From: Topomyia yanbarensis | Taxonomy: Eukaryota > Arthropoda > Insecta > Diptera > Culicidae | Direction: 5' to 3' | NCBI RefSeq assembly: GCF_030247195.1 | Contig: NC_080672.1 | Span: 188,177,201-188,241,200 of the forward strand | DNA length: 64,000 nt | Shown here: in pieces, positions 12,796 through 41,046 of the stretch | Layout: each line of letters starts with the position of its first letter | Numbering within the stretch: position 1 is the stretch's first letter | Position numbers and translations under genes: made by a program | Notes under the pieces: generated by a model | Database searches by the model: none | Seen by the model: the letters and a program-made list of their open reading frames with translations, nothing else | What the model was told of the DNA's origin: nothing

Positions 12796-15700
12796 CAGGG
12801 CAGGAAATATTCGAACCGAACCTATGTTCGAATACTTTCAAAGCGCGAAGCTTTGCGTTACTGGTTCGTATTCACAAGCTTCGCATCACAATCGCTTACC
12901 ATCGTAATTGCGGACATTTGGGCGATACTTTTGCATGCTCTTCGGCGAGGACAAATGAAGCTTCTTGTTCATTTCATTGATGTTCGGAAAGATATGTAAA
13001 AGCTTTTGCGTAGTTTTCGACGAACACGAGCTAAGCTCTTGGTTCGTGTGATCGATATTTTTGAAACAGTTACACGGAGCTTCGAAGCGATGTTCGCGAA
13101 TACAGAAAAAAGATTACCTCGAAGTATTTCAGAATCGCGAACACCGAAGGATTTTATCAATTTAGCATCGCGAGGGCCATCGCTAACATGTTCGCCGGAC
13201 GATATTAGTTTTCTTTATTCAAATACCTACCTACTAGTTATGCAAAAAAAAGTATATTCTAGACAGAGGCCTTGTATTAAGGGTGGAATAGGTGAAAAAT
13301 AATTGTGACAATGTGTAGCTTATGGATGCTGGGGTTAACTGAAAAGTGACGTAACAAGTTTATTTAAGATACCCTACTGATATATTACCAGTAGAGATAA
13401 AATCAAGATTTCGTGACAGGGTGGGGATAAATTTTCAAATGAAATAAAATAGGGCTAGAAAATGAAGTTAAACACAATGTACACAACGTATTGAGTGGCT
13501 CGCTTATCTTAGTCATGTTCTATGTCAGTTTCTTGAGGATCCAGTTATGTCAGTTTCTTGAGGATAAAGATATCGATATCCATTCAAAGGAAAAAATCGA
13601 TTATCAGTTAAATAAATAACGTCATGATATGTATGATGAATCCTAGAAATAAATAGGGAATGTCAATAAACTCGACCATTCCCGATTCATATTTGGCAGT
13701 TCTGGTCGTTTTGTAAATCTCGTTTTCGACTAACAGTAAAACCATTTTGATTCAGAAGTATGTTTTAGAAGGGCGCATGTTTTTTCGTGCACTTATTTAA
13801 AAAAACGCTTTGAATCCATCTACCAGTGTGATGAGACATTTTTATAACTGTTTTCGAATATTATATCGGTTGAGAACTTTTAGAAAATGATTTTTCGAGA
13901 AATTTTGAAAGTGAAATTAAATCAGTTGTAATGTTATAGAAAATAGCCTTTTAAAATGAACGGACAATCGAATTATTACTAATACTTTATGAATACATTA
14001 TCTAAGTTCTTCATTCAATGCAATATGTATGCAAAAAGTTAAAAACTGGATTTCCCTTGAGAACTGGGCCAAAAAATCGAAAAAAATGTGTTGGCGATCC
14101 GAGAACTAGAACAGAAATTGTAACTCTTGGACCTCTGAAGTGCATGCGTACAAAATGCTATAGTCTAATGTTTGTTTTCATTCATTTCATTTAATAATTT
14201 TCAGTTGAGCAATTCTGTCGCAAACTGCATTGTGGAGCGAGGGTCATAACTTCCTAAATTTAAGTGTTCCTATTAATTTAGTACACTCTCTTTAACATAA
14301 ACTACTCTCTTTAACATAAACTCTGAACGAATGGGAGTAGGTTCGATAAATTTTGAAAGAAGCCGTTAAATCAACCACTTAAGGGATTACACCACCGCAA
14401 AATTAAAAAAAAAAATCGAAATTGATCTTGATTGATTTTATTATTCCATATCAACCTTTGAATAGGGCTAATAAGATTTGTGAACAAACTTTTGTTTTGC
14501 TGATTTCTCTTAATTTGTTATCATTTCAACACAGAAAACATTTGAAATCGATTCTACCAAGGGCAAAGATGTTGATTCATGTGTATTTTTCATAAAATTC
14601 AACTCTGTAGCGGAAAAATGAGCGAAATAAGTTTGTTTACAAAAGTCTCATTAGCCCTTTTGAAGAATTACTATTGTATTGATCTTAAATATGGGTCTTC
14701 AAAATAATATATCAAAATATGGAATGCGACAAAAAGCGAATAATAATGGAAAGACAGTATTCGAAAAAGTTCGAGTTTAGAACGACTTTCATTCTACTTG
14801 GAGTTATTTATTTCGCTTCTCATTTTCCGAGATTTCCCTTACATAAAGCATTTCGGCTATAACTGATTGAAAAAAAAAATACAGGGGGCCCTAAAGATTT
14901 CTTCCTTTTATTTTTTATTAGTAAAAGTCAAATAAGGGAAGATTACATCATGGAGAAGATAAACCAATTTTTGTCCTTTTCAGAATTGTTTTTGGATTCC
15001 CAACAAAAAAAAATCACTAGAACATTGTTTGTAAGTTCTTTGCGTTTCTCCATCAGTAATTAGTTAACAAATACAATACAAACAAGTTGGAATATCCTTC
15101 TCATTATTTATCACAAAACACATGTACAGGAGTCAGGAAATAAATTTCATAAAAGTGGAAATGTAATAAGTTTGACACTTCATTCATTAAGTGAACAGAT
15201 TCTGTCGAAAATGTTTGAAAATAAATATTTTGTCTCTTGTGATTAGGTAATCAACCAATAAACTTATAAAACAATTTTATAAAAATCATTTGGAAGCTTT
15301 CCTCTTGGTTTGGTACAGATGCCAAGAAATTATAATTCAATTAATGACAATAATAATGGATTCAAGTATGTAGGTATTTGTTAATAAATTCATTTGGTAA
15401 AATTAAAAATAACGTTTAACACACAAATCATCGCATATTATTGAGTGAATATGACTAGCCGATTTAGGAATGTTGCGCAAGAACGTTAGAAACCGCAACA
15501 AGTTGAAAACAAAGGCCAACGGACTACGCCTAACTACCCCTCAGTGGATGCAAATAACTGAAGTTCGCCGTCTAACTGAACTCGGACGTCAGCAGTGAGA
15601 TTCCATCCGAAAATTGTTCTTTTTAGGAAGAATTTGTTTTAGATAGGGAGATTATTAAGAGAGGGGTAATGGTTTTAGCGTTAAAAACACTATTTGCGAT

Positions 15701-17390: not shown

Positions 17391-18706
17391 TTAACGATAC
17401 ACGGTGTAAATGAATTTGTCGTCGAATCTAGTAGGTTTTTTGATGTTGCTACGTTTGCGCAAAACTCTTGCTTCCGAGTTACTTCCGGACACCGGCTCTG
17501 TGACAGAGTTATTTGTATTATCGATGTTCTCCGGTTGACCAGTCGTATTGTTTTCAATTGTAGGATGCAGTTCTTCCATCGAGTTATAAGACCGATCTGT
17601 ATCCGATTCAAAATTGTTAGCGATCAATGGAGCTTTCCTTACATCCTGGACGTTCCGGGAAAACTGGATTCCTCCTCCACTGACTAAAACAACCTTCGCA
17701 CCCTCACGGGCAACGACTGTATAACGTTCAGACGAAAATGATGGATCTAGTTTCGACTTTTTATGCTGAGACATAAGCACGATATCCCCAATACCGAAGT
17801 TTGAATCTTTTGCTCCGCGTACTGAATCTGCGTAGTCCTTGCTCATAAGTTTTGCTTCACCATCGCGTTCTCGTATGTCTATACGATCCAACTCATTGGA
17901 ACCTGAGTCACTCCAAAGACTGGAAAATGTTCCACGGTACTTCCAGCCAACTAACAGTTCGAATGGAGTTACACCTAGACGTGAATGGTAGACTATTGTG
18001 TTATGGTTGTGTACGTATCGTTGAAGGGCTTCTCTCCAGTTTTCGCCTTCAAATTTTGCAGCAGCTACAGCTTTTATTATACCCTGGTTCTGTCTTTCGA
18101 CAGCACCATTGGTTTGTGGGCAAAGCGGGATTGATTTCCGAACTTTGACGCCTTTGCTCTCCCAGAAAGTAACAAACGTTGAGCTTTGGAATGGAGGCCC
18201 GTTGTCACTCTGCATGATAACTGGGCAACCCCACGTCTGGAATACTTGGCATAATGCTTTGTTTGTACTATTAGCATCGGTTTGATTCATTTCCACTAAC
18301 GTCAGGTATCTAGAATATGTGTCCACTACTACTAATAGTGTACCAGCTCCAGTTACAGGGATGGAAAGGAAATCAATCTGTACTATCTCCCAAGGGCCTT
18401 CAGGTAGTACTCTGTTAGATAGGGGAAGAGGTGGGTTTTTGCGGGCTAAAACGGCGCACGTCTTGCAATTCTTGACGAATTGAACTACGTCCGTGGACAT
18501 ATTTGGCCACCAAAAAAACTCGCGCATTATTCGTTTCATCGAAGCCTCTCCAATGTGACCACCGTGAGCGGATGTCATGGCTCTTATTCGAAGTGCTTTT
18601 GGAAGGACCGTTTTGTCACCCTTGAAAACAAGGTGTCCCAACAAGTGAAGATTTGTTTTTTGTGCTTCAAACTTTCGCAGTGAATATGGCCACTGGTTGG
18701 TATCAA
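17391..18706 (-). pseudogene. gypsy integrase
   Basis: An open frame to the junction with the 18707 insertion; the annotated Met at 18644 is internal. An H2C2 zinc domain lies near the N-terminus (HGGHIGE...C-T-C). The DDE core follows: IDFLSIP with the first Asp, QSDNGPPF with the second Asp, then the Glu in TNGAVERQNQ. A chromo-like or basic C-terminus ends at 17391, just before the PPT. It catalyses insertion of retrotransposon cDNA. The coding part is uninterrupted here, but it is severed from the rest of pol by the inserted element at 18707-22620. Precise excision rejoins the frame with the RNase H side (gcaa + ttgatacc). Confidence 0.92.
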
Positions 18707-19329
18707 TAGACCTTTCTCGTCAAAAAATTTTATATGATGGGATGCTTCCTTTTTTACCCCCATTCGTTACTGCCTATTGCCGCGATGATTTGGTACCTCT
18801 AACTATTGAAAAAATCAAAAATAGTGCATGCTGCTCATTTAACCCCATATTCTGAATACCTATCTTGCCTTGTTTCCCCGTATTTTTACACCATTTGGAT
18901 GAATTTCCTGTGAGGAATACTAAAAGGATGCCAGATCTGCATATATATATATTAGTAAATCTGCAGATTTTGCATTTTCACTGCAGATCTTTTGCAGATT
19001 ACAAATATTTAGCAGAAAAAAGCCTATGCCAGCCAATTTATACACAAGCCTTCAACATTTTTGATCATTTAAAATATATACATACTACATTTCTACGTCG
19101 CATTTATTGAAGATTTTTGTAGCAATCTGCAGACTTTTGTATTTTTACTGCAGGCTATTGTTTAAATAGACCTGGCATCACTGATACTGAAATGATTCAT
19201 TCATATACCTGTCAAAAATATAGAGCATTGTATGAAAATGTATAACCTCACTTTTCTGACAGTTTCGGTGTGCTTGTTTACCTAAGGCTCGTTTACACGG
19301 ACTTTTAAAATTTACATTACTTGAATACT

Positions 19330-19908
19330 TTCGATGCTCTTTGAAAAAATATCAACTCAAGAGGGATGAGGATTGGAACAATGGTAACCTGGTTCATACA
19401 TTGACCAATCGGCGCTGGATGTAAAACCCGGTGGCATATGCTGAATCGCAAGATCAAGCATTGGGCTATAAAACGATTGCTTTCTGGATGATGGATCCTT
19501 ATCAAATTTGTACACATTTGTTTGTTTGCTCGTGGGTTAATTCCTAACAAGATGATCCGATTGATTATTCATTTTTAGGTGGTGAAGTTTACCTGAACTT
19601 TATAGGTAACGAATTCGGTCGATGATAAGTTGTTGAAATGATTTTGATCGTTCAATGCCCATATCGAAGAACGTTTCCATTGGTCAGAATGCCTACCAGC
19701 GTATGATAGCTGCAAACATGAGGACAACAAGGTTATCGCTTTCGAATGGAACAATTATTTATTATTCGTGTTCAAGTTCCATTACAGCAAAAGTTTCGTC
19801 GATTATCGCATTGTCGTTGATTTAGCCGGCAAACGCAAAATAGCGCTCGGCACTGACGATAAGGAGTATGAAGGATTTGATTGGAGTGATAATAATGCAG
19901 AGCATTAA
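19330..19908 (+). pseudogene. Captured fragment of glycogen branching enzyme, copy 1
   Basis: Translating with frameshifts gives successive pieces typical of the C-terminal half of 1,4-alpha-glucan branching enzyme: DEDW..GN.VHTLTNRR, VAYAES.DQAL..KTIAFW, KMIRLI followed by GGEVYLNFIGNEFG, and then EERFHW, KHEDNKVIAFE and DYRIVVDLAGK. The order and spacing match the enzyme family. One internal stretch (the NEFGHP...LDD interval) is deleted, there are stops and frameshifts, and the C-terminal beta domain is cut by TAA at 19906. No intron remnant is obvious. It sits inside a Spy-like element, so it was copied or captured rather than being a native gene. Confidence 0.8.
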
Positions 19909-20111
19909 ACATTCTGATAGAATATCAGGGAGGAGAAATTATATGTAAATTTATATTATATCCCGAGTTGCCATCATTTTGGCACCGCAATAAAGCTATC
20001 TGCTGTCTTGTTCAAATTGGCACGAAATAACTAGGCAGCGAACGATAAATTTCATAGTCAATTTATTTACTTTTTCGGAAGGATAAGTAATTAGTATGTT
20101 GTGAATATATG

Positions 20112-20262
20112 TGTCGCCGGTGCCGTGTGTTATGGTGGTACCGGACGGAACCGTTGGTCAGCAGACCGTCCTTGTCGTACTGGTCATAAATACGACGTTT
20201 TTTCTCATCTGATAGCACTTGACATGCTTCGGAGATCTGTCTTAACGCTCTCTACTTAGCGC
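20112..20262 (-). pseudogene. Captured DnaJ (Hsp40) J-domain fragment, copy 1
   Basis: The minus strand reads LRQISEACQVLSDEKK.RIYDQYDKDGL, the helix III-IV end of a J domain as in DNAJB-type co-chaperones. The sequence then becomes unrelated. The HPD loop and helix II are absent, so it cannot stimulate Hsp70. A homologous copy occurs at 39038-39175. Confidence 0.78.
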
Positions 20263-20570
20263 AGGATACGCGAAACCACTGCTAGCTTTCGAAAGAAAAT
20301 TCCTAGCTGCTGCTACCCTATCAGTCTCTCTCTCTCTCGGCTGAGGACTACAATTTCGGTCGATTAAATTATGCTATGAAAATTGTACTTCCTGGAATTT
20401 CATCTAACTAGGTCAATTCATTGTGAGGAATTTCGCTGCGTTCCAATATTGCTTGCCTCTGTAGGTGATGATGTGTGTGGATTCACTTCGGCAGCCAGCT
20501 CTTATGTTTTGGATAATTTTGCTATCTTATTCTGCTGAATAAATCATCTGCCTAAAGCCTCTACGTTATA

Positions 20571-21145
20571 CTACGGTCTCTTTAAAAACGCTCTGCTATT
20601 TAATCTTGTAGCTCTCGGCAAGTCAGTCCTGGCACTCTTCTCGACTATTCCTGGCACTATACCGCTGACGTCGCACTTATGACGGTGATCAAACTTTGCG
20701 AGAGTGGCAGTGGTTTCGGAATTGTTCACTCGACAAGCAGTAAGTGCTCTGCTACTTATGCCTGAGCCCCTCATTGAAACCTTCGTCCTGCCGGAGTGTT
20801 AGCTTCGTCCGATACCGGAGCGTATTGCTGAACCGAAGCAGTCTGCAACTGGCGCAGCTTCCTTCGAATCGGAATCGCTGAATATTCCCGTTAGCCGAAT
20901 GTCCAACGTGGCCGAAGGCAAACCGATTGCAGCAACACCACCAGCCGTAGCTGACCTTTTAGCCTTTAATCCGAGTCCCTGCCATTGGCATAGCGACAGA
21001 CGAGTGCGGCGCAGGCTGGACCATCGGTTGACTCGGTGCCGGACGGGGCGAAACAGCTGCAACAGGAGCGGACCTAGTATGGGGTGTAAAGGTCATCAAT
21101 TGCCATAGATCACCAAAATGCTCTGCGACTAACATTGTGAACAAA
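20571..21145 (-). other. G+C-rich protein-like segment inside the Spy-like element
   Basis: Distinctly richer in G+C than its surroundings and conserved in copy 2 (37886-38460). Short frames on both strands are open across parts of both copies, for example a Pro/Ala-rich one containing PRPAPSQPMVQPAPHSS. It may be a third captured exon. I cannot assign a family, and none of the frames is intact in both copies. Confidence 0.4.
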
Positions 21146-21695
21146 ACAAACCAAATGAAATTGATCGCAACAACGATAAAACAATCTAAATTCTACCCAA
21201 ACATTTGAAACATTTGAAAAGGGTCTAACTGCCGAACGTAAACCTTGAGAAAAAGGCAAAAGAAGTTTTGGTCGAATTCATTATAATTCTATTTAAAAAT
21301 TTAATACTGTTTTATTTAGTTTGATTGCGCATATTGTTTACATCAGACACTCCCCTTAATTCATTGAGTACGTATTTCACTGCCTTTATAATCCTTTTGG
21401 AATCAGTTACAATAATCCTTTATAATCATTTTATAATAAGCGTATTGCTAGTTAGGACTTTTATATCAGCCGGGCCCTTTATAATTTGTATAAAATCATT
21501 AACAAAATTCTTCATAATCCATTGTTGCGTTATGTTTGTGCACATGGCCAGATATAGTTTTTAACTGGGACGTGACGTGTGGATACGAAAAAACCTAATG
21601 TCAATTGCAGCCAGGAGGAGCTGTCAAATGCAGCCAAAGGGAACCGTCAAATGCAGTCAAGGGGAACTGTCAAATGTAGCCAGTCCATTTAAAAT

Positions 21696-21895
21696 ATTGC
21701 GAATCTTTTCTAAAATCCACATCGTGACATTTCAGCCATGCGCCACCCAACCGTGCGCCGAGTTAAGCGCATGTTCACTTCGCATTAGTGCAAGCGAAAA
21801 AACGATTTGACGTTTGTTTTTGTTTCGTTCGTACTCATGTGTGTCACATATAGCAACAAATCGACGAAACGCTAGTTTATCTTGGGATAGACAAT
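21696..21895. mobile_element. 200-bp TIR element with AT duplication
   Basis: Present in copy 1 of the Spy-like element and absent from the matching place in copy 2 (near 37330). Termini ATTGCGAATC and GATAGACAAT, with AT on both sides. A related copy with an insertion is at 9156-9619. Confidence 0.75.
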
Positions 21896-22620
21896 ATGTG
21901 AGGAAGAAAGAGTGGCTATGCAAGACAAGAGATCAAATGAACAGAAAAAAAGAAAACATATCCACAGGTTATGTCCCAGGATTTTAATAGAGAACATGAA
22001 AATTCGATTTGTTTGCATTTGGCAGTGGGCCTTTTTCAAATGTTTGGCTAGAAATTCCTTACTTCTACAATGAATCATGTACAAGAAAAGTAAAAATGTT
22101 AAATTTAACGGAACAATGTATGATGCCGACATCAAATAAAAAATTACAGCTGAGCGACCTTGTTTGGAAAGTGTTAACATTTGGCAGCGAACCAAACCAA
22201 GTTTCTCATACTATGATCGAATCAACAAAAATTCCAAGACCATGTAAACAATCTCTCTGAACTGTCAAAAAAGTGAGGTTAAACATTATCATGCAATGTT
22301 CTCCACCGAGAGGTTCACTTTAATTTGTTTACATAACCAATGAACTTTGTACCGCGACTCACCACTTCATTTGCCGCGTTGCCAGGAACTCAAGCAAAAA
22401 TATTCAAAACAGTGTTGCCCAAACACACATTTTCAGTCCCACCATTCTTGCAAAGGTGAAAAAAATACTCAACATTCTTGCATTTTTCAAATTTAAAAAA
22501 AACATTAAAAAATCACCATAGCTCCAAATAGTCTCATTTCAACGGCAATATGCTTAAAAATGTGTAGTCTTTTGAATAAAAATAAGAAAAAAGGGGGTTA
22601 GGTCGGACGAGAATGGTCTA

Positions 22621-23239
22621 TTGCCTCTTGGACTCCTAGAAGCTCGTCGTCAGTCTCTGAGGCTCTTTCAATTTCTTCCCACGTGATCTCCATATATCCC
22701 GAATCCAATGCATAAAGAAAGTTATTTGAATCCTATTCTTCAAACGGGATTGCGCTTTGAGTTTCGCATACCAGTCGGGACAGTGAATCAGCTACATTTT
22801 GTTCCCCCGGTACTCTCATTACTGTGAACTCGTAGGGCTGCAGCCTTAAGGCCCACGATTCAGCCCGTGTTACGGCTCTTTTGCCAATACGGTGGTTGGT
22901 GCTAAAAATGAATTCATTGGACTCTGAGTCGGTGCGGATCACGAATGAGCGACCTAGAAGGTAATATGAAAAGCGCTCCACCGCCCACACAACTACCAAA
23001 GCTTCTCTCTGAGTTTGTGGGTAACGTTGTTCGGTGACTGTCAATGCCTTAGATGCACAAGCAATTATTCTTGGAACAGCATCTTTATTGTATTGTACCA
23101 CAACAGCACCTAATCCAGTTGGTGATGCATCTACGAATAACTCCACTATCGCTTTTAACGCATCATTTCGCAAGAAGTTAAATTCATTTTCTTCGTGGTT
23201 GGTCCAGTAGAATCGTTCCGAGTTAACCAATGCTCTGAG
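22621..23239 (-). pseudogene. gypsy RNase H
   Basis: This continues pol between the H3-array insertion (right) and the Spy-like element (left). Motifs are LFVDASPTGLGAV (first Asp), TQREALVVVWA (Glu), and IRTDSES (Asp), then the tail motif VADSLSR. After an in-frame TAG at about 22733 the frame goes on in register to the 22620/22621 junction (ERASETDDELLG). RNase H removes genomic RNA during cDNA synthesis. The stop and both insertions inactivate it. Confidence 0.88.
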
Positions 23240-23835
23240 GTTTTAATGTAGAATACATTTAAGCTTTCAATATAGGGGTCCCGTTTCAAAATATCGGCTG
23301 CGGCGCCGCGTCAGATTATGAACGTTAATAACTTTTAACACACTTAACAGAATGATTTGATTTTTAGGCCAATTTGTTGAAAATATGTTCCTCTATGCTG
23401 TATTAAAATTTGAAGTATGTATAACATGCACTAATAACAAAAAATTGTGTTTTGAAAAATCTTTCGAAAAAGACTCGGAAAAGTGAAAATTTTCAGCCCA
23501 TCCCGCACACAGCCGTCACTATAGTGGACCAACCGAACAATAAAATAATGAAAAGTTTATATATAGGTCCACTACATGTTTGTTCCTATGATTATTCGCA
23601 TTGGGTTGCTTGACGAGAGCAGTTGGTGGGGAAAAGACGGCATATTCCTTTGGTTAGGCCTTTAGAAGCCGGACGGAAAGGAAAGGCTCATGCACGGCAC
23701 GAGAACGAGCGAGAAAGCGATAGTAGTGCATATTAGCGCGATTATATAAATATCTGTCGGTCGGTTTTTCTCATCATTCGTATTCGTTCAAGTACTAGCA
23801 AGCAAGTACTAGCGGACTGGCTCCGCCGGAGGAAA

Positions 23836-24070
23836 GCAGTTGGGCAATGACGAAGGCCGAAAAAATGCCTCAGCTACTGGTGACTCATCGGAACTGTCGC
23901 CCTGCAAGAATTTCGCCCCAACTAAAGGGCAACTAATCTGTAGGCTATCGTTCCAGCGTCTGGTTCGTGAGATTGTACAGGACTGCAAAGTCGAGCTACG
24001 CTTACAAAGCTCAGTCGTAATGATGCCCCGAGAAGCCCACGATGCCTACTTGGTCGGTTTGTATTATTAA
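23836..24070 (+). pseudogene. Histone H3 pseudogene, unit 1
   Basis: Starts near H3 residue 18 (KQL) and continues through [22 protein letters not shown] and EA..AYLVGL, matching the H3 histone-fold core with several small deletions in the tail-to-core region. It ends at TAA before the alpha-2 end. Upstream lies a TATATAAATA box at about 23741-23750. The stem-loop is at 24133-24148. Confidence 0.85.
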
Positions 24071-24132
24071 ACTGGCTCACCGTGTCCGTGGGGAGTGCGT
24101 TTGAATTATTCTCCCGCAAAAACCCAAAAAAC

Positions 24133-24148
24133 GGTTCTTTACAGGACC
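24133..24148 (+). terminator. Histone 3' stem-loop (GGTTCT-TTAC-AGGACC)
   Basis: A 6-bp stem with one G-U pair and a 4-base loop, placed about 60 bp after the H3 frame. It matches the replication-dependent histone mRNA 3' end structure. Confidence 0.75.
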
Positions 24149-24921
24149 AATTAATTGTGTTCTAAAAAGAGTTAAACTGAAATTTACATTTTATGGTGTA
24201 TAACAAATAATTTTCAGAAAGCTATATAAGATATACGATGTGTGGAAAGAAAGAAAGAGAATTTAAATTATCCTCTCTCGCTCGTTTTCGTGCACTGCTT
24301 TTCCATTCCTTTCTGTTGCTAATACCATCATAACTAAAACGAATGTGCGTGTTCCCCCACCATCTCATGGCCAGTGTTGCCACAATTGCATGTTGCTATT
24401 ACACTTTGAATTATTTTATCGATCCTCTCTAGTATTGATAAAATATAGAACGTGCAAAGTACACTAGTCGCATGCTTTTATTCGAACTTTTTGGCAGCCT
24501 CCGTTGATTAACTGCATAAATCGATTTGTTTGTGCAGCTCCTTGCCAGTAGCAAACTAAATAGCCTTTATCAGCGCTAACAAATAACACAAAAGAATTTA
24601 AATTTGTGAAAATCTTTTCCTTCCTTCTTTTCAAATCTGCAACATTCTTTGAAAATATTGTTTGAATGTTGTTATTGAAAAACTGAACATGCAAGTTTGC
24701 TAGCACTGGCCACTAGATTGAAGGCGATGGAAAGACAGAATATTCGTTTTGGTTATGCTAGTATTGGTAGCCGAACGGAAAGGAAAGGCGCAGGAATGGC
24801 ACGAAAACGAGCGAGAGAGCGATATTTGTGCTTTCTCGTGTGTTCATATATGAATATTGGTCGGTCGGTTTTTCTCATCATTCGTATTCGTTCAGGCACT
24901 AGCAAGCAGCCAGTCCCCGAA

Positions 24922-25161
24922 GGAAAGCAGTTGGCAATGACGACGGTCGGAAAAAGTGCCCCAGCTACTGGCGACTCATCGGAACTGTCGCCCTGCAAGA
25001 ATTTCGCCCCAACTAAAGGGCAACTAATCTGTAGGCTATCGTTCCAGCGTCTGGTTCATGAGATTGTACAGGACTGCAAAGTCGAGCTACGCTTACAAAG
25101 CTCAGTCGTAATGATGCCCCGAGAAGCCCACGATACCTACTTGGTCGGTTTGTATTATTAA
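24922..25161 (+). pseudogene. Histone H3 pseudogene, unit 2
   Basis: The next tandem unit, almost identical to unit 1. H3 similarity runs KQLA.....[33 protein letters not shown]. It shares the same truncation as unit 1, so the units were duplicated after the gene had already decayed. The stem-loop is at 25224-25239. Confidence 0.85.
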
Positions 25162-25223
25162 ACTGGCTCACCGTGTCCGTGGGGAGTGCGTCTGAATTAT
25201 GCTCCCGCAATAAAACAACAAAC

Positions 25224-25239
25224 GGTTCTTTACAGGACC
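25224..25239 (+). terminator. Histone 3' stem-loop, unit 2
   Basis: The same GGTTCT-TTAC-AGGACC hairpin as in unit 1, at the same spacing. Confidence 0.75.
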
Positions 25240-26013
25240 AATTAATTGTGTTCTAATAAGAGTTAAACTGAAATTTACATTTTATGGTGTATAACAAATA
25301 ATTTTCAGAAAGCTATATAAGATATACGATGTGTGGAAAGAAAGAAAGAGAATTTAAATTATCCTCTCTCGCTCGTTTTCGTGCACTGCTTTTCCATTCC
25401 TTTCTGCTGCTAATACCATCATAACTAAAACGAATGTGCGTGTTCCCCCACCATCTCATGGCCAGTGTTGCTACAATTGCATGTTGCTATTACACTTTGA
25501 ATTATTTTATCGATCCTCTCTAGTATTGATAAAATATAGAACGTGCAAAGTACACTAGTCGCATGCTTTTATTCGAACTTTTTGGCAGCCTCCGTTGATT
25601 AACTGCATAAATCGATTTGTTTGTGCAGCTCCTTGCTAGTAGCAAACTAAATAGCCTTTATCAGCGCTAACCAATAACACAAAAGAATTTAAATTTGTGA
25701 AAATCTTTTCCTTCCTTCTTTTCAAATCTGCAACATTCTTTGAAAATATTGTTGGAATGTTGTTATTGAAAAACTGAACATGCAAGTTTGCTAGCACTGG
25801 CCACTAGAGACTAGATTGAAGGCGATGGAAAGACAGAATATTCGTTTTGGTTATGCTAGTATTGGTAGCCGAACGGAAAGGAAAGGCGCAGGAATGGCAC
25901 GAAAACGAGCGAGAGAGCGATAGTAGTGCTTTCTCGTGTTTTCATATATGAATATTGGTCGGTCGGTTTTTCTCATCATTCGTATTCGTTCAACCACTAG
26001 CAAGCAGCCAGTC

Positions 26014-26296
26014 CACCGGACGAAAGCAGTTGGCAATGATGACGGTCCCAAAAAGTGTCCCAGCTACTGGTGGCCCATCGCAACCAACTACCGATCAGGA
26101 ACTGTCGCCATGCCAGTATTTCGCCCCAACTAAAGAAGAACGGAGCAACTAATCCGCTGGCTAGCATTCCAGCGTCTGGTTCGTAAGGTTGTGTATTACT
26201 TCAAAGTCGAGCTACGCTTACAAAACTAAGCCGTAATGAAGCCAGTGATGCCTACTTGATCGGTTTATTTGAGGATACAAAATAGTGCGCCAAGTA
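26014..26296 (+). pseudogene. Histone H3 pseudogene, unit 3
   Basis: A more divergent unit that keeps extra H3 sequence missing from units 1-2: KSVPATGGP then a YRSGTVA-like part in another frame, FQRLV, YLIGLFEDTK, and an HAKRVT-like trace. It has several frameshifts and stops. It retains ancestral segments, so units 1-2 derive from a deleted sister. Confidence 0.82.
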
Positions 26297-26373
26297 CGTA
26301 ACTTTCTCGCAAAAGAAATCAAACTGGCTCACAGTGTCCGCTGGGAGTGGGCGTAAATTACAATAAAAGCAAC

Positions 26374-26389
26374 GGTTCTTTTCAGGACC
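26374..26389 (+). terminator. Histone 3' stem-loop, unit 3
   Basis: GGTTCT-TTTC-AGGACC, with the canonical UUUC-type loop. Confidence 0.8.
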
Positions 26390-26750
26390 AACCAATTGTG
26401 TTCTAGTGAGAGTTAAACTGAAACTTTTATTTTAAGATGTGTAATTTTCAACAAGCAACATAATACGTTGTGTGGAAAGAAGTAGCTTGCACACGGAACA
26501 AAAATTTAAATTATCCTCTCGCTCGTTTCGTGCACTGCTTTTCCATTCCTTTCTACTGCTATTATCAGTATAACCAAAACGAATGTGCGTGTTCCCTCAC
26601 CATTCTTCTAGTGATCAGTGTTGCTTCAATTGCATGTGTTTAAACGTTGAAGTCGCATGCTTCTATTCGAGCTTTTTGGCAGCCTCCGTGTACTAACTGC
26701 ATTAAATGATTTTTTTGTGCAGCTCCGTGCTAGTAGCAAACAAAATGGCC

Positions 26751-29018: not shown

Positions 29019-31700
29019 ATGGTAATGAATATTTTATGTATAACTATGTGTAAAATATATTTTTTTTGCGTTTTCAGATTCAGCACCGGTGCATCGTAAC
29101 GAGATGTATGAACGTTGTACCTGGTCCGGTACCGTTTTTCAAATGCCCTGGATACGAGAGTAAAGTGTTTAAAAAATGGACAGTTTTTTTTCATCTTGGC
29201 GGGATGCGAAAGGAAAAAATTTGTAAAAACCACTTCAACGAAAACGATTTTATGAAAAGTAAGTTCTTGGAAAACCTTGTTATTTTTTGAAACTAATTTA
29301 ATTATTTCAGATATTCGCATGAAATTAAAATATCATGCAGTACCAACACAAAACTTGCCAGGTTCTGATCCGTATGTGGACAAAAGTGGAAGAAAATGTT
29401 GTGTTAATGAATGCCGTGCTAGAAAAACAGCCATACTGTTTCAATTTCCGATTGATAAAAATAACTCGATGTTACAAATGTGGAAAAAGTCGCTCCACAT
29501 GAAAGAGCAAGATAGTACTACGTTGCTAAGAATTTGCGAATATCATTTCAAAAGCAGCGACTTTATAACAGGTAACTATCAATCATTGACAATTTATAGG
29601 TATTCTACGTTTACATAAAATGCTCTTCTTTTAATGAATATTGTTTCTTTCTAGTTACTTCGTTTTATCTGAAGCCAAATGCTGTACCGAGAATAAACAT
29701 ACGCAGACAAATTCGTTTTCCTCGACGACGGGTTAAAGACACGACTGAACTTTCATCTACTTTGCGTGATCATAACTACTGCGAACGGTGGTTCCAGTCG
29801 AACGGTAACCGCATGTGTTCTGTCTACGGATGCAATTCACGTGCAGGAAATAATGTCAGTCTTCATAAATTCCCACTGAAAACAGACGAAAGATATTCTA
29901 TCTGGATGCGTAACTTGAAGCATGGAAAAAACCAACAATCTATTCAAAGGTTTGCAGTAAGCATTTTGAGGATGCTGATTTCATGCCAGGTATGTTGTGA
30001 AGCACACAAAAATAGTGTGGACATTTATCCATAAGTTACTTGCAAAGTCTTGAACTTTTCTTTTGAAACTTTTTTTTAATGTCAGCATTATTATTGCTAA
30101 GTCAAAATTTTGCATCTGAAAAACAGCATAGATTTTTTTTAAACCGAGCTTTTGTTTATAATTGCATTTTATGATAGGCGTGTTAGTGACTAACGGTTAA
30201 AATTGGCTTCCTTATAAACGGCTTTTTGAAATATCTAGCCAATTACAACAAGACAATAAATGTTCCAATGTATAATCAATTCTTTCGTACAGTTATTTGA
30301 CTTCCTGCTAGAATAATTTGTGTCGATACTTTGTACTTATAACCCAACATAATTTCTTTAGTGTAAAACCCGCAATAATTTCTTATGTATTCATAACCCG
30401 ATATAATCTCAGGTGGTAAGAGACTCAAGAACACGGCTGTGCCCAAACGAAATTTACCGCGAATTTTAGAGCTACGAAGAGACAACACATATGGTAAACC
30501 TCGCTTCCATGTTCCAAAAAAACAGTTGCCACTTGAGAAACATTCAGCAAGTAACTCGGAAATCGACCCAGATGAAAGTGTAGTCTCAGCCGACTCGAAG
30601 TTAGATGATTTGTCCTGTCTACTTAATAGAACAACGATATCAGAATCATCTGATTATGACCATACGTTAAAGAAGGAACGTGATCCAGTTCAAGAAGAGA
30701 AAAATACGGTTATAGGCTGGTCAGCAGTCCGCCATGAGGACAGTAACTTAGAAAACCAGGAAAAAAACACAATTAAAAATGTGAACGAGATTGGCAAACT
30801 GGAAAAAGGAAGAGTATGGATTTTGTCAGACTTATTGCTTTCAGACTATGATGTCAATACATGGACCGGCATACCAAGTCTTGATATTCTACAGGAGATT
30901 TGCTTAGTAGCGAAGAAACTGATGCTCTGTATGCACAAAAGTATAGTATGCATTGTTCTGATCGTGTCATTTTGGTGATGACGAAGCTCAAGCAAAATTT
31001 ATCCTTCGCTGCGATCGCAACTTTGTTTAGAATTCACCCTGCAACGGTTTCAAAATATTTTGCTTACACTGTACAAATTTTGTCACAAATTTTGTCATCG
31101 TTTGTGTACATGCCCCGGAAAGAAGAAATTTTGCAAAATATCCCACTATGTTTTCGTGACAAGTTCACAAATGTAACAATGGTACTTGACTGCACGGAAG
31201 TATCTTTGGCAACTCCAAAATGTCTTAACTGTCGGATTGCCACATACTCTCAATACAAATCACGAAGAACTGCAAAATTTTTAGTTGGGGTGACTCCTGC
31301 CGGGTTGATATCATATTGTAGTAAAGCTAACTCTGGCAAGGCTTCGGACAAATTTATCTTTAACGATGAACAATTGATTGAAAAGCTATATCCTCACGTC
31401 GATGAAATTATGGCGGACAAAGGATTCACAATAGAATCGGAGCTATCTCAAAAAGGCATAAAGCTACATATCCCACCTTTTATGAGAAGTCATCGACTGA
31501 CAGACGAACAGGCCCGTATAAACGAAGCTATTGCTAAAGCAAGAATTCACGTGGAGCGAATAATGCAACGATTGAAACTGTTTGCAATTCTGCAAGAAAC
31601 GCTTGATGCATCGATTATTGGTCACATTGATGACATAATGACCATCATTTGCGGTATCGTTAATCTGTCTAACCCAATTCTTCGTGATGACAAATTTTAA
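29019..31700 (+). pseudogene. THAP-domain DDE transposase of the ISL2EU-type element
   Basis: Inferred exons: ...29021 (ATG/GTAATG), 29078-29258, 29311-29571, 29655-29989 and 30413-31700, all with GT-AG borders and matching phases except as noted. Three THAP-like C2CH zinc fingers come first (CIVTRC...CKNHF; CCVNEC...CEYHF; CSVYGC...CSKHF), each ending in a DF motif. An acidic linker follows (30440-30880), then a helix-turn-helix (FRIHPATVSKYF). The DDE_4-type core comes last: VLDCTE (Asp), MADKGF (Asp) and HVERIMQR (Glu). Two 1-nt frame breaks, in THAP3 near 29950 and before the core near 30895, make it a likely pseudogene unless they are sequencing errors. The core 30900-31700 is itself open. 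Confidence 0.87.
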
Positions 31701-31854
31701 TTGCCTGAAATAAATTAAAATAATAAAATAAAACAATAATACTCTAACAATAACATCCTTTATTTAGTGCAGGAAGGAATAAGTAACAACCTAGCAATAA
31801 AATAAAAATAGATAAATGAAGAAACATCTTAGTATGTTTAATATTTAGATAAGT

Positions 31855-33539
31855 TTACGTACTACAATCTGGTAAAAGTGTTGCAAGCATGCGAGTGAAG
31901 TATAACCCTTTCAATCCATTAACGATATTCTCGGTGAAAGAACGATCAAAATCCACTTCGATGAGTAAAAAGTCGTCATCCTTTGCAGAATACAGGATAA
32001 AGTCACATTTGTCGCATTGAAGGACCCACATGTTCATTTGAACTTGGCAGTAGTATGCGTGATTTTTGTTCAGTTGCAGCTCACCAGTAACCGGGCACCG
32101 TTTCACATATTTTTTCACCGTCCCACATTGTTCCAATTCCAGAATACTGCCGTTCTCACCTGTCAAGGGGCATTTAATTTCTAAAACGACGTTGTTCAAG
32201 CAATCGACGCCATCTGGAGAGGCACCGAACCAGTTTTCTTCAGGTTTGATAACCAACCCACATTTCATTATCATCGGGTTGCGTTTTTGTTTATAACATT
32301 GGAAAGCAGCAGATTCGGTTTTGCTACCATACTGTATCGCTTTACTCTTCAAGGCTTTAATGCTCCAATATTGGGTTATTTTCTTTTCCCAATTTGGATT
32401 AGCGTTAGTAAGGTAAGTGAATAGTTTGTAACACGAACTAGCGGTGATCCGAATCGACCTTTGAATTTTCCAAAAGTTGGAAGTTTGACTCTGAGTTTCA
32501 ATCGCAATTTCAATAATTCTCGCTAAGTCCACATTTATATGCTCTCTATAAAATTTCTCCTCCTGCACTGTTGCAAATTTGTATTGTGTTGTTAAAACGT
32601 TGGTGCGTGCATACGTCAGCATGCTCTGCAATTCGTTTGATCGACAAAATTCAACATTTACTGTGGACCCCGTACACTGCAGTAATCGATCAGGATACAT
32701 AAGTGGCTCGTTCAACTGTCTCCCGTTTATATGTTTTGCAATGGCAGAATTCTTGGCAACTGAAATTTATATCAAAATGATTTTAAACGTAAAGTAGATC
32801 TAAATTATGCTCTTTGTTTACCATTCAAAATCCTGTTGAACGACTCGGCCAAAATATTGTTTTGCAATTGTATGTCCGGGGGAAGTAGGCGAACATATTG
32901 TTTTATGCAACAGAGTTGATTGATTCGTTTTGCTCCCCACTTGTTGAATTTCTCTTTTTTTGTGATTCCCCATGCTTGGACTGCAGTAGTGCAGGAAAGG
33001 AACTCACAGTTAACAGAACTGAAAAGGAAACTTTATTTTCTAGTTCCATTAAAAATGCCTAAGGGATAGTAGCTTACCGGTTAAGTTCCAACAAGCAAGC
33101 AATAATGTGCTTACAGCGAGCCGTCCCTGCCTTACAAGAACATTTCAACGCCCACCCGGAGACATTGGCAGTGATTTTCAGGTCAATTGTGTGCGGTATA
33201 TGCTGTGGATGAGATGACTGTCTTACAAATCCCGTAATGTAAACACAGTCCGCTGAATTTTCTGTGTAGCCTATAAATATCACATGCTTAGCCTCGAACA
33301 CGGCACAATCCTCGCGAATTGGTCGCACTGAGTCGCCAACATAATCTAATATGTCGATTAGATTAACATTAACCGTAATGTCTTTTCGGTTTCCACCTGA
33401 AATATATGGAGAACTATGAAAACCTAACCTAGATGGTAAGCGAATATATTTTCGAAGATTTCCTACGTTTCATCTTACTAAAACTGTAAATAATCATTTT
33501 ACTAGTTTTCGCATCGAATTTCTTACCTTCCGAGTCCAT
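31855..33539 (-). CDS. YqaJ-type nuclease with SWIM zinc finger, intact four-exon gene
   Basis: Exons on the minus strand: 33527-33539, 33078-33396, 32822-33018 and 31855-32759, all with GT-AG introns and compatible phases. They give one open frame of 477 codons. The N-terminal third has a SWIM finger (CSC...CKH, near 33100). The C-terminal half is a YqaJ/lambda-exonuclease-like PD-(D/E)XK domain: YGSKTE (Glu), FGASPDG (Asp) and VLEIKCP (Glu-x-Lys). In ISL2EU elements this second protein accompanies the transposase; a role in end resection or strand processing is inferred. The gene converges on the transposase gene with about 150 bp between stops. It is the best-preserved gene in the window. 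Confidence 0.9.
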
Positions 33540-36608: not shown

Positions 36609-37885
36609 TAGACCTTTCTCGTCCGACCTAACCCCCTTTTTTCTTATTTTTATTCAAAAGACTACACATTTTTAAGAATATTGCCGTTGAAATGAGACTA
36701 TTTGGAGCTATCGTAATTTTATAATGATTTTTTGAAATTTGAAAAATGCAAGAATGTTGAGTATTTTTTTCACCTTTGCAAGAATGGTGGGACTCAAAAT
36801 GTGTGTTTAGGCAACACTGTTTTGTATATTTTTGCTTGAGTTCTTGGCAACGCGGCAAATGAAGTGGTGAGTCGCGGTACAAAGTTCATTGGTTATGTAA
36901 ACAAACTAAAGTGAACCTCTCGGTGGAGAACATTGCATGATAATGTTTAACCTCACTTGTTTGACAGTTCAGAGAGATTGTTTACATGGTCTTGGAATTT
37001 TTGTTGATTTGATCATAGTATGAGAAACTTGGTTTGGTTCGCTGCCAAATGTTAACACTTTCCAAACAAGGTCGCTCAGCTGTAATTTTTTATTTGATGT
37101 CGGCATCATACATTGTTCCGTTAAATTTAACATTTTTACTTTTCTTGTACATGATTCATTGTAGAAGTAATGAATTTCTAGCCGAACATTTGAAAAAGGC
37201 CCACTGCCAAATGCAAACAAATCGAATTTTCATGTTCTCTATTAAAATCCTGGGACATAACCTGTGGATATGTTTTTTTTCTGATCATTTGATCTCTTGT
37301 CTTGCATAGCCACTCTTTCTTCCTCACACATTTTAAATGGACTGGCTACATTTGACAGTTCCCCCTGACTGCATTTGACGGTTCCCTTTGGCTGCATTTG
37401 ACAGCTCCCCCTGGCTGCAATTGACATTAGGTTTTTTCGTATCCACACGTCACGTCCCAGTTAAAAACTATCTATCTGGCCATGTGCATAAATATAACGT
37501 AACAATGGATTATGAAGAATTTAGATAATGATTTTATAACAAATTATAAAAGGGCCCGGCTGATATAAAAGTCTTAACTAGCAATACGCTTATTATAAAA
37601 TGATTATAAAGGATTATTGTAACTGATTCCAAAAGGATTATAAAGGCAGTGAAATACGTACTCAACGAATTAAGGGGAGTGTCTCATGTAAACAATATGC
37701 ACAATTAAACTAAATAAAACAGTATTAAATTTTTTAAATAGAATTATAATGAATTCGACCCAAACTTATTTTGCCTTTTTCTCAAGGTTTACGTTTGGCA
37801 GTTAGACCCTTTTCAAATGTTTCAAATGTTTGGGTAGAATTTAGATTATTTTATCGTTGTTGCGATCAATTTCATTTGGTTTGTT

Positions 37886-38460
37886 TTGTTCACAATGTTA
37901 GTCGCAGAGCATTTTGGTGATCTATGGCAATTGATGACCTTTACACCCCATACTAGGTCCGCTCCTGTTGCAGCTGTTTCGCCCCGTCCGGCACCGAGTC
38001 AACCGATGGTCCAGCCTGCGCCGCACTCGTCTGTCGCTATGCCAGTGGCAGGGACTTGGATTAAAGGTTAAAAGGTCAGCTACGGCTGGTGGTGTTGCTG
38101 CAATCGGTTTGCCTTCGGCCACGTTGGACATTCGGCTAACGGGAATATTCAGCGTTTCCCATTCGAAGGAAGCAGCGCCAGTAGCAGACTGCTTCGGTTC
38201 AGCAATACGCTCCGGTATTGGACGAAGCAACACTCCGGCAGGACGAAGGTTTCAATGAGGGGCTCAGGCATAAGTAGCAGAGTCCTTGCACTTACTGCTT
38301 GTCGAGTGAATAATTCCGACGAAACCACTGCCACTCTCGCCAAGCTTGATCACCGTCATAAGTGCGACGTCAGCGGTATAATGCCAGGAATAGTCGAGAA
38401 GAGTGTCAGGACTGACTTGCCGAGAGCTACAAGATTAAATAGCAGGGCGTTTTTAAAGTG
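37886..38460 (+). other. G+C-rich protein-like segment, copy 2
   Basis: Counterpart of 20571-21145. A minus-strand frame starting at 38233 stays open for about 100 codons (PIPERIAEPKQSATGAASF...), partly preserved in copy 1. No family recognised. Confidence 0.4.
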
Positions 38461-38750
38461 ACCGTAGTATAACGTAGAGGCTTTAGGCAGATGATTTATT
38501 CAGTAGAATAAGATAGCAAAATTACCCAAAACATAAGAGCTGGCTGTCGAAGTGAATCCACACACATCATCACCTACAGAGGCAACCAATATTGGAACGC
38601 AGCGAAATTCCTTACAATGAATTGATCTCGTTAGATGAAATTCCAGGAAGTACAATTTTCATAGCATAATTTAATCGACGGAAATTGTAGTCCTCAGTCG
38701 AGAGAGAGACTGAGAGTAGCAGCAGCTAGGAATTTTCTTTCGAAAGCTAG

Positions 38751-39008
38751 GGGACCATTCATAAATTACGTAACGCATTTAGGGGGGGAGGGGGTACGAC
38801 AAGTTGTGACAAGTTGTGACATAGGGGGGAGGGGGTGTTAACTAGATCGTTACGTAACATGTTTTCACCAAAGAAAAAAAATTTTTTCTTGGAATTTGTT
38901 ACGTAACAGGGGAGAGGGGGATGGAGAAATTTGTGACAATTTGTTACATAGGGGGAGGGGGAGTCAATTTTGGGCAATTTTTGCGTTACGTAATTTATGA
39001 ATGGTCCC
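38751..39008. mobile_element. 258-bp palindromic MITE with 3-bp TAG duplication
   Basis: The TIR begins GGGACCATTCATAAATTACG and extends to about 26 bp, perfect. TAG lies at 38748-38750 and 39009-39011 and is present once in Spy-like copy 1. Its interior has repeated GGGGGAGGGGG and TTACGTAAC motifs. A 3-bp TSD suggests a PIF/Harbinger-type MITE. Confidence 0.85.
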
Positions 39009-39037
39009 TAGCAGCGGTTGCGCGTATCCTGCGCTAA

Positions 39038-39175
39038 GTAGAGAGCGTTAAGACAGATCTCTGAAGCATGTCAAGTGCTATCAGATGAGAAAAAACCTCG
39101 CATCTATGACCAGTACGACAAGGACGGTCTGCTGACCAACGGTTCCGTCCGGTACCACCATAACACACGGCACCG
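39038..39175 (+). pseudogene. Captured DnaJ J-domain fragment, copy 2
   Basis: LRQISEACQVLSDEKKPRIY and DQYDKDGL, differing from copy 1 by a few residues. Only the C-terminal half of a J domain is present. The 38751 MITE sits just upstream of it. Confidence 0.78.
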
Positions 39176-39185
39176 GCGACACATA

Positions 39186-39669
39186 CACACTAACCCAGCC
39201 CAAACTTGTTCAGTAATTTATTTTGACGACTTGCTTAGTAAAGTGATATTTTTAAGGAGCTGTCAGCAAATTGTTTCAAAATTTGCGGAATAGTTTTCAT
39301 TTTTTAGCGATTTTCAGTAACTTTTTGAATAATTTACTGAAACCCGCAATATTTTTCACTGAATTTATCAGCTCTCCTGTTTTTTTCGGTACATGAACAT
39401 TATCCAGTAAAATACTGACTGGTTGTTCGGCAAAATTGTACCAACGTTACCGAACCCCGTCAAAAATTTACAAAACAGGTACAGCAAATCATCTGTCAAG
39501 TCGATATTTTCAGAGGAAACTGCTGACTGACCAGTGTTTTTTGACGTTTGGATAGAACGGATTGCGGAGAGTTCGGTACCAAATTGTTTTACTGAATTGA
39601 TTACCGAACGGTTTGCTGTTCAAAACCCCAGCAAAATTTTACTGTACCCAGTAATTTAAATTAAGTGTG
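39186..39669. mobile_element. 484-bp element with TA duplication
   Basis: CACACTAACCCAG ... TTAAGTGTG with TA on both sides (39184-39185 and 39670-39671). Spy-like copy 1 has the empty site (CACATATATTC). Repeated CAGTAA and TTTACTG motifs fill the interior. Probably a mariner-type MITE. Confidence 0.75.
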
Positions 39670-39879
39670 TATATTCACAACATACTAATTACTTATCCTT
39701 CCGAAAAAGTAAATAAATTGACTATGAAATTTATCATTCGCTGCCTAGTTATTTCGTGCCAATTTGAACAAGATAGCAGATAGCTTTATTGCGGTGCCAA
39801 AATGATGGCTACTCGGGATATAATATAAATTTACATATAATTTCTCCTCCCTGATATTCTACCAGAATGTACAATGCTC

Positions 39880-40455
39880 TGCATTATTATTATCACTCCA
39901 ATCAAATCCTTCTTACTCCTTATCGTCAGTGCCGAGCGCTATTTTGCATTTGCCGGCCAAATCAACGACAATGCGATAATCGACGAAACTTTTGCTGTAA
40001 TGGAACCTGAACACGAATAATAAATAATTGTTCCATTCGAAAGCGATAACCTTGTTGTCCTCATGTTTGCAGCTATCATACGCTGGTAGGCATTCTGACC
40101 AATGGAAACGCTCTTCGATATGGGCATTGAACGATCAAAATCATTTCAACAACTTATCATCGACCGAAATCGTTACCTATAAAGTTCAGGTAAACTTCAC
40201 CACCTAAAAATGAATAATCAATCGGATCATCTTGTTAGGAATTAACCCACGAGCAAACAAACAAATGTGTACAAATCCTTATCCATCATCCAGAAAGCAA
40301 TCGTTTTATAGCCCAATGCTTGATCTTACGATTCAGAAAATGCCACCGGGTTTTACATCCAGCGCCGATTGGTCAATGTATGAACCAGGTTACCATTTTT
40401 CCAATCCTCATCCCTCTTGAGTTGATATTCTTTCAAAGAGCATCGAAAGTATTCA
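39880..40455 (-). pseudogene. Captured fragment of glycogen branching enzyme, copy 2
   Basis: Reverse-strand equivalent of 19330-19908, with the same order of branching-enzyme motifs and the same internal deletion. It has additional point changes; the terminal TAA of copy 1 is TGT here. The shared deletion shows the damage predates the duplication of the host element. Confidence 0.78.
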
Positions 40456-41046
40456 AGTAATGTAAATTTTAAAAGTCCGTGTAAACAAGTCTTAGGTAAA
40501 CAAGCACACCGAACTGTCAGAAAAGTGCGGTTATACATTTTCATACAATGCTCTATATTATTGACAGGTATATGAATGAATCATTTCAGCATCAGTGATG
40601 CCAGGTCTATTTAAACAATAGCCTACAGTAAAAATATAAAAGTCTGCCGATTGCTACAAAAATCTTCAATAAATGTATATAATTTAAATGATCAAAAATG
40701 TTGAAGGCTGGTGTATAAATTGGCTGGCATAGGCTTTGTTCTGCTAAATATTTGTAATCTGCAAAAGATCTGCAGTGAAAATGCAAAATCTGTAGATTTA
40801 CTAATATATATGCATATCTGGCATCCTTTTAGTATTCCCCACAGGAAATTCATCCAAATGGTGTAAAAATATGGGGAAACAAGGCAAGATAGGTATTCAG
40901 AATATGGGGTTAAATGAGCAGCTTGCACTATTTTTGATTTTTTCAATAGTTAGAGGTACCAAATCATCGGGGCAATAGGCAGTAACGAATTGGGGATAAA
41001 AAAGGAAGCATCCTATCATATAAAATTTTTTGACGAGAAAGGTCTA

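Follow-up and report, generated by a model that had tools for sequence, protein, structure and literature searches.

A non-autonomous family of terminal inverted repeat (TIR) elements in the sabethine mosquito Topomyia yanbarensis (Culicidae) carries broken pieces of several host genes. Two copies lie in a 64,000-nt stretch of its genome, here called the window, which a genome search placed on sequence C3 (428584394 bases); coordinates without a sequence name are those of the window. We consider the family to be a gene-capturing (Pack-type) cut-and-paste transposon, with the captures and the spread proposed below, at a probability of about 0.85. The element is a TIR-bounded unit that was inserted as such, its interior is homologous to identified host genes that lie elsewhere in the genome, and its copies share this cargo and encode no transposase. 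The parts of the two copies are as follows.

18707 to 22620, plus strand: copy 1, a type I Pack element of 3914 bp, identified by its TIRs, the second copy and the in-frame join of its flanks
18707 to 18721, plus strand: left TIR of copy 1, TAGACCTTTCTCGTC
22606 to 22620, minus strand: right TIR of copy 1, with one mismatch
18707 to 19356, plus strand: the element's own left arm, of which the first ~515 bp and 19322-19356 are also found in the type II relatives
19357 to 20109, plus strand: fragment of glycogen branching enzyme (GBE), residues ~434-684 with the stop codon, followed by ~118 bp of the 3' untranslated region (3'UTR)
20110 to 20525, minus strand: DNAJB6 fragment, a 5'UTR exon from the splice acceptor boundary, then residues ~44-90
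20526 to 20744, minus strand: ~200-bp piece between the CHCHD2 and DNAJB6 fragments, a type I marker
20745 to 21140, minus strand: CHCHD2 fragment, exon 2 preceded by the end of intron 1 (~65 bp, about 21076-21140)
21141 to 22620, plus strand: the element's own right arm, with 23-bp tandem repeats at 21599-21682
21693 to 21892, plus strand: 200-bp insertion present in copy 1 only (1/31 type I loci)
36609 to 41046, minus strand: copy 2, the same element inverted
38751 to 39011: nested insertion in copy 2, 261 bp, resembling a miniature inverted-repeat transposable element (MITE), with perfect 27-bp inverted repeats and a CTAG or TA duplication
39186 to 39671: nested insertion in copy 2, 486 bp, with a TA duplication

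Copy 2 is bounded by TAGACCTTTCTCGTC and its reverse complement, again 15 bp long, and differs from copy 1 at 108 of 3673 aligned sites (2.9%). The large length differences between the copies are nested insertions (261 and 486 bp in copy 2, 200 bp in copy 1), and no open reading frame (ORF) of at least 120 aa is found inside either of them. The inverted-repeat sequence of the MITE-like insertion reads GGGACCATTCATAAATTACGTAACGCA. Inside the arms a pair of subterminal inverted repeats was seen (19222-19281 and 22244-22302, 83% over 60 bp); their distances from the element ends are unequal and other copies show them too.

The cargo of copy 1 runs in the order GBE (+), DNAJB6 (-), ~200-bp piece, CHCHD2 (-). 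All three parents were located in the host genome, GBE at C3:140885364-140887225, DNAJB6 at C3:81394262-81396008 and the CHCHD2 exon at C1:214084942-214085361, and the cargo was aligned to them as DNA. Each fragment has an internal deletion, of ~75 nt in GBE, ~225 nt in DNAJB6 and ~64 nt in CHCHD2, and one removed intron falls within residues ~44-90 of DNAJB6. In tblastn the E-values reach down to 1e-52 (GBE), 2e-20 (DNAJB6) and 1e-16 (CHCHD2). A frameshift-tolerant alignment of copy 1 gave a score of 207 for DNAJB6 and 281 for CHCHD2, compared with 54-82 and 48-99, respectively, for 12 base-shuffled versions. Chance similarity of the cargo is excluded because of these E-values and the shuffled controls. 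A first-pass annotation of the window, made from the letters alone, had reported a TIR element and a second copy with the same cargo, pieces of branching enzyme and a DnaJ protein and a third protein-like piece; all of this was borne out, and the third piece is CHCHD2. Its count of two identifiable host genes was too low, as the window copies hold three and a related element adds SCAP as a fourth, and the limits of its pieces had to be corrected to about 19357-20109 (GBE), about 20525-20110 (DNAJB6) and 21140-20745 (CHCHD2).

For CHCHD2, a PDB match at E 0.34 was a lead only, and a later protein search supported the assignment. A stretch adjoining it was at one point read as the CHCHD2 3'UTR, which was wrong, as part of it is DNAJB6 5'UTR. 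No source gene was found for the ~200-bp piece, whose sole Pfam row has E 0.2, far below the cut-off; in copy 2 it contains a 65-codon open reading at 38264-38458. The cargo carries frameshifts, stops and shared deletions, and protein function is therefore unlikely. Judged from its sequence, it is most likely passive freight and not a working gene.

The surroundings of both copies support insertion.

17391 to 18644, minus strand: pol ORF of a long terminal repeat (LTR) retrotransposon, integrase part, on one side of copy 1
22733 to 23230, minus strand: RNase H region belonging to that retrotransposon, flanking copy 1 opposite the integrase part
14151 to 14263, minus strand: paralogous empty site of copy 2, TCAA/CTGA against TCAA-element-TTGA

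When copy 1 was excised in silico at CAA/TTG (slashes mark the insertion point), the pol frame stayed open over the junction CAATTG. For copy 2, the empty repeat copy at 14151-14263 reads TCAACTGA where the repeat around copy 2 holds TCAA-element-TTGA. The in-frame join at copy 1 and the empty paralogous site of copy 2 thus show that the elements were inserted as units, and in these two cases no host bases were lost. A Tc1/mariner-like TA duplication was rejected, since the empty site and the in-frame join are both two bases too short for it. Apart from the elements, the window contains an overlapping direct repeat at 23633-26637 (~1.9 kb, 86% identity).

To describe the target, element ends in the genome were located by their AGACC start. 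Among 64 distinct ends, the first element base is T in every case, the flanking base is A at position -1 in 63 and at -2 in 60, and at -3 it is C in 38 and A in only 7. The target site is NAA/TTN. With the ends read as TAG...CTA, a flanking repeat is absent at all 22 two-ended loci. An AT duplication, however, would produce almost the same sequence, so that the two bases AT stay ambiguous and the absence applies to anything longer. Such a duplication (A/AT/T) is compatible with 63 of the 64 ends and contradicted by a single locus, L023, which has G at -1, still T as element base and AT at the other end, and would be unequal under duplication.

The first-pass annotation had called the element Spy-like and free of a target site duplication. 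Spy inserts in AAATTT without duplication, and ISL2EU uses an A/AT/T target with an AT duplication and TIRs that usually start with GG (PMC4482050; for Spy also PMC11304231; published work is cited here and below from excerpts of the papers). Like Spy, the family inserts at an AATT-centred site, with no flanking repeat other than the ambiguous AT, in an insect, and Spy is also tolerant of cargo (PMC11304231; PMC4482050). The core AA/TT agrees with this (A in 63/64 at -1 and 60/64 at -2), whereas the full AAATTT that Spy prefers is not seen here: C is favoured at -3, A is rare (7/64), and no Spy transposase is linked to the element. No flanking repeat was seen at any two-ended locus, with the reservation that an AT duplication gives nearly the same sequence, and 'Spy-like' describes a resemblance only.

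Instead of a Spy-like element that makes no duplication, the family may be a member of ISL2EU that truly duplicates the 2 bp AT within A/AT/T and whose ends read AGACC...GGTCT. This is a serious possibility that we rate somewhat short of even odds. The nearly constant A at -1 and -2 around a constant T...A fits the A/AT/T target (PMC4482050), and the window itself contains an ISL2EU-type pair of ORFs, DDE_Tnp_4 and YqaJ. However, the TIRs would start with AG and not with the usual GG (PMC4482050), no long ORF lies in the element, L023 is unequal under duplication, though this is one case, and no TIR of the family occurs within 2 mismatches near these ORFs. We therefore describe the family as a Pack-type TIR element that resembles PHIS elements, and claim membership neither in Spy nor in ISL2EU. 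The ISL2EU-type coding region at 29300-32715 comprises DDE_Tnp_4 with a helix-turn-helix (30900-31700, +) and a YqaJ nuclease (31855-32715, -) and is a candidate relative of the driver; an inverted-repeat scan around these ORFs gave no convincing ends. Within 2 mismatches, the TIRs occur in the window only at the four element ends and in two weak unrelated hits (17978 and 46547). A 23-base subterminal word had no match in a scan of viral contigs.

Relatives with the same TIRs carry other cargo. Twelve loci (L031-L042), here type II, have a near-complete DNAJB6 in most cases, CHCHD2 in 10/12 and, by tblastn, GBE in 0/12; a TIR lies within the cut flank in 7/12, and in L033 the element is complete. 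Its left and right arms are ~91% identical to those of copy 1, and in a left-arm tree of 26 rows six type II rows split off on a branch with 100/99 support. Another locus, L064, whose ends lie outside the fetched stretch, has GBE, DNAJB6 and CHCHD2 at ~72-85% identity to copy 1 and has kept more of DNAJB6. On C1 a complete element of 4826 bp with perfect TIRs at both ends (C1:102151580-102156405, joined from L065 1081-2900 and L063 1-3007) contains CHCHD2 genomic sequence together with a piece of SCAP. This piece matches the Pfam family Beta-prop_SCAP at E 4.9e-13, which does not reach the curated cut-off, as would be normal for a fragment, and its reading is interrupted by intron-like stretches with GT...AG ends, as judged by eye.

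Counting these relatives, pieces of at least four host genes are thus found in elements with the same TIRs. The combinations number at least three, each present in at least one complete two-TIR element: SCAP and CHCHD2 with intron sequence, CHCHD2 with intron-free DNAJB6, and CHCHD2 with DNAJB6 and GBE. The simplest order of capture would be CHCHD2 (with or after SCAP), then DNAJB6, and then GBE with the loss of most of DNAJB6. In the first 600 bp of L062 (1-600, minus strand), near a CHCHD2-carrying element, a C2H2 zinc-finger-like reading was noticed by eye, which is either cargo or flank. A second multicopy set consists of branching-enzyme pseudogenes (L044, L046-L054; positions include C2:149448758, C3:10431522, C2:247260330 and C2:210760857) that cover residues 30-571 and apparently miss the short introns of the parent; no TIR of the Pack family was found within 2 mismatches in their 1.5-kb flanks.

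The cargo was inspected for introns of the parent genes, as the first-pass annotation had suggested, and the pieces differ. In the CHCHD2 parent, intron 1 opens with a GTGAGT donor after exon 1 and closes with ...TTCTAG before exon 2. Homology to CHCHD2 begins inside intron 1 in four of six compared element sequences (copies 1 and 2, L036, L038); in L033 it begins only within exon 2, and in L031 CHCHD2 is not matched at all. The homology of L062 and L063 extends ~520 bp beyond the stop codon, past AATAAA (parent 1530-1983). DNAJB6 in the type II locus L036 lacks three introns exactly at the splice sites, and its homology begins upstream at a fourth splice acceptor (TTTCAG/ATAGC). In the window copies DNAJB6 likewise starts at the acceptor and one of the removed introns is also absent. 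An extension of DNAJB6 to residue 254 by tblastn (L037-L039) fails at the DNA level, where the copy ends near residue 211. CHCHD2 thus entered unspliced, because intron 1 sequence is retained, and DNAJB6 from spliced mRNA, because its introns are removed exactly. On the same kind of reading, SCAP appears to have been captured unspliced as well.

As a mechanism we propose that gaps in the element, caused by double-strand breaks or by excision, would have been repaired by template switching onto host sequences, piece after piece. For SCAP and CHCHD2 the template would have been genomic DNA, for DNAJB6 a cDNA or a processed copy. The resulting chimaera would then have been spread by a transposase acting in trans, from an unseen PHIS-type (Spy- or ISL2EU-like) relative inserting at NAA/TTN. 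A wider proposal, that one DNA-transposon lineage captures by two routes, from genomic DNA and from spliced mRNA, with the chimaera growing stepwise and each stage amplified, is tentative and we regard it as rather doubtful.

For the DNAJB6 step alone there is an alternative that may well be right, although we lean slightly against it: retroposition of the mRNA into a CHCHD2-carrying element by the machinery of a long interspersed nuclear element (LINE), and not capture by the element's own repair. In its favour, three introns are exactly absent in L036, where the 5' edge coincides with a splice acceptor, and a run of seven A follows the truncated DNAJB6 end in L038. However, the copy breaks off near residue 211 and does not reach the stop codon, and the A-run is thus not at the mRNA end. 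Moreover, none of the 12 cut-out loci with near-full-length DNAJB6 is a free retrocopy, as the other 11 align with L033 beyond DNAJB6.

The type I package itself was followed through the genome. A whole-element search, in which the best 39 of 4328 candidates were scored, led to 30 cut-out loci, copy 1 among them, which together with copy 2 form a set of 31. Their junctions were tested with 31-base marks, allowing 6 edits at most. The GBE/DNAJB6 junction, the junction between the ~200-bp piece and DNAJB6, and the internal deletions of DNAJB6 and CHCHD2 are each present in 31/31 loci. The marks for the left-arm/GBE start, the GBE deletion, the CHCHD2/200-bp junction and the intron 1/exon 2 boundary were found in 29/31 each, where for the GBE deletion only matches at up to 4 edits were counted. 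In type II these marks occur at 0/12 loci, save for the intron 1/exon 2 mark (7/12). Type I is one fixed, already broken package with a single founder, because the junction and the internal deletions are common to all 31 loci.

The package is also widespread. Its 65-codon marker occurs at at least 150 places (150/150 scored of 739 candidates) with 86-100% identity, the first row being copy 2, and the right arm at at least 40 places with at least 98% identity (40/40 scored of 1644 candidates). Of four right-arm matches that were fetched, three (L058, L060, L061) have both TIRs and, by tblastn, GBE and CHCHD2 pieces. DNAJB6 gave a tblastn match in L058 and L061; part of it is seen in L060, at the DNA level only.

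The common junctions also speak to the idea that retrocopies and repeats landed separately in one repeat and that their debris was mistaken for capture. Nesting does occur, with two insertions in copy 2 and one in copy 1, and DNAJB6 is intron-free, as in a retrocopy. However, the GBE/DNAJB6 and 200-bp/DNAJB6 junctions and the DNAJB6 and CHCHD2 deletions recur in 31/31 loci while the flanks of the two-ended loci differ, CHCHD2 retains intron sequence and SCAP has intron-like gaps, which makes such a nest very improbable. Separate insertions, which the first-pass annotation had named as grounds for giving up gene capture, were thus looked for in vain, and capture stands, with the parents of all three pieces in the same genome. 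Still less credible, for the loci examined, is a spread by segmental duplication or ectopic recombination instead of transposition. Some copies on unplaced contigs resemble duplicated haplotypes (C84/C95, C128/C205), but the empty site, the in-frame join, and the exact TIR ends and unrelated flanks at 22/22 two-ended loci argue against it.

Several observations weigh against the Pack-type reading with its captures and spread. A partner search within the window linked neither an autonomous element nor a transposase to the TIRs, and the repair and template-switch step is one that we infer. Among the type I marks, the intron 1/exon 2 mark is unmatched in L014 and L024, both GBE marks in L028 and L029, and the CHCHD2/200-bp mark in L010 and L014, the latter mark needing 5-6 edits outside copy 1. 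At 6 edits the GBE-deletion mark also fits undeleted GBE (10/12 of L043-L054, parent included), and the GBE/DNAJB6 junction of copy 2, on which an insertion sits, needs 6 edits as well. The cargo junctions were verified at the 31 type I loci and the 150 places were scored for the marker, L059 shows only the right part of the element in the fetched stretch, the genome copy counts are lower bounds, and the contig pairs named above may be duplicate haplotypes. Of the type II loci, L031 and L041 (2/12) show no CHCHD2 and 5/12 no TIR in the cut flank, and the fetched stretches of L062 and L064 miss one end or both. A single SCAP-carrying element was read over its full length, and in the PDB comparison SCAP (E 1.1e-10) ranks just below a designed propeller (2.5e-11). 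Losses could mimic part of the capture order, and type II may have lost GBE. As to templates, the GBE piece lies wholly in the last exon of its parent (313-684) and the 3'UTR and gives no splicing information, and for the CHCHD2 intron piece a pre-mRNA or a transcript from an alternative promoter would be a conceivable source.

Similar elements have been described in other animals. A survey of Pack-TIRs lists 370 in 100 animals, with none in the surveyed reference genomes of birds and insects, and only four multicopy cases plus Ssk-FB4 in fly populations, mostly of hAT and Tc/mariner type (Tan et al. 2021, PMC8277862). Like these, the Topomyia elements are non-autonomous TIR elements with host gene pieces, and in the model of that survey multicopy forms spread by transposition after template switching (FoSTeST). 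In contrast to them, the Topomyia family has a target that agrees with PHIS elements and draws on three to four genes, and the type I marker occurs at at least 150 places. In Aedes aegypti ~20% of the derivatives of Muta1, which are like Pack-type Mutator-like elements (Pack-MULEs), align to host genes (PMC5225508); these too are mosquito TIR elements with interiors matching host genes. MULEs typically have TIRs of more than 100 bp and duplications of 8-10 bp, unlike the 15-bp TIRs and the NAA/TTN target without such a duplication found here. For arthropod MULEs, the excerpt of a 2026 survey speaks of capture only in a general way (PMC13359780). In the openly licensed literature, where absence is weak evidence, no report was found of host-gene capture by Spy or ISL2EU-type elements or of a high-copy multi-gene capture series in such elements, and the name Topomyia yanbarensis is absent among the literature matches listed. 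The statement of the first-pass annotation that no insect case was known thus holds for Spy/ISL2EU-type elements and not for insects at large, given the MULE derivatives of Aedes aegypti (PMC5225508). Pack elements in mosquitoes are already known from these MULEs; notable here are the copy number, the gene number, the several cargo stages in one genome and the mixed template.

Gene capture by TIR elements in animals is poorly known, from one broad survey with few and nearly all single-copy cases (PMC8277862, as excerpted). With many copies, at least three cargo combinations and the parents in one genome, the capture order, the template type and the breakpoints become directly readable in this family. 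If capture by two routes were true, genes could be captured when gaps at a cut-and-paste element are repaired with RNA or cDNA as the template. For the host, gene annotation in this mosquito may contain many false copies of GBE, DNAJB6 and CHCHD2, and small RNAs from these elements could, hypothetically, match host genes.

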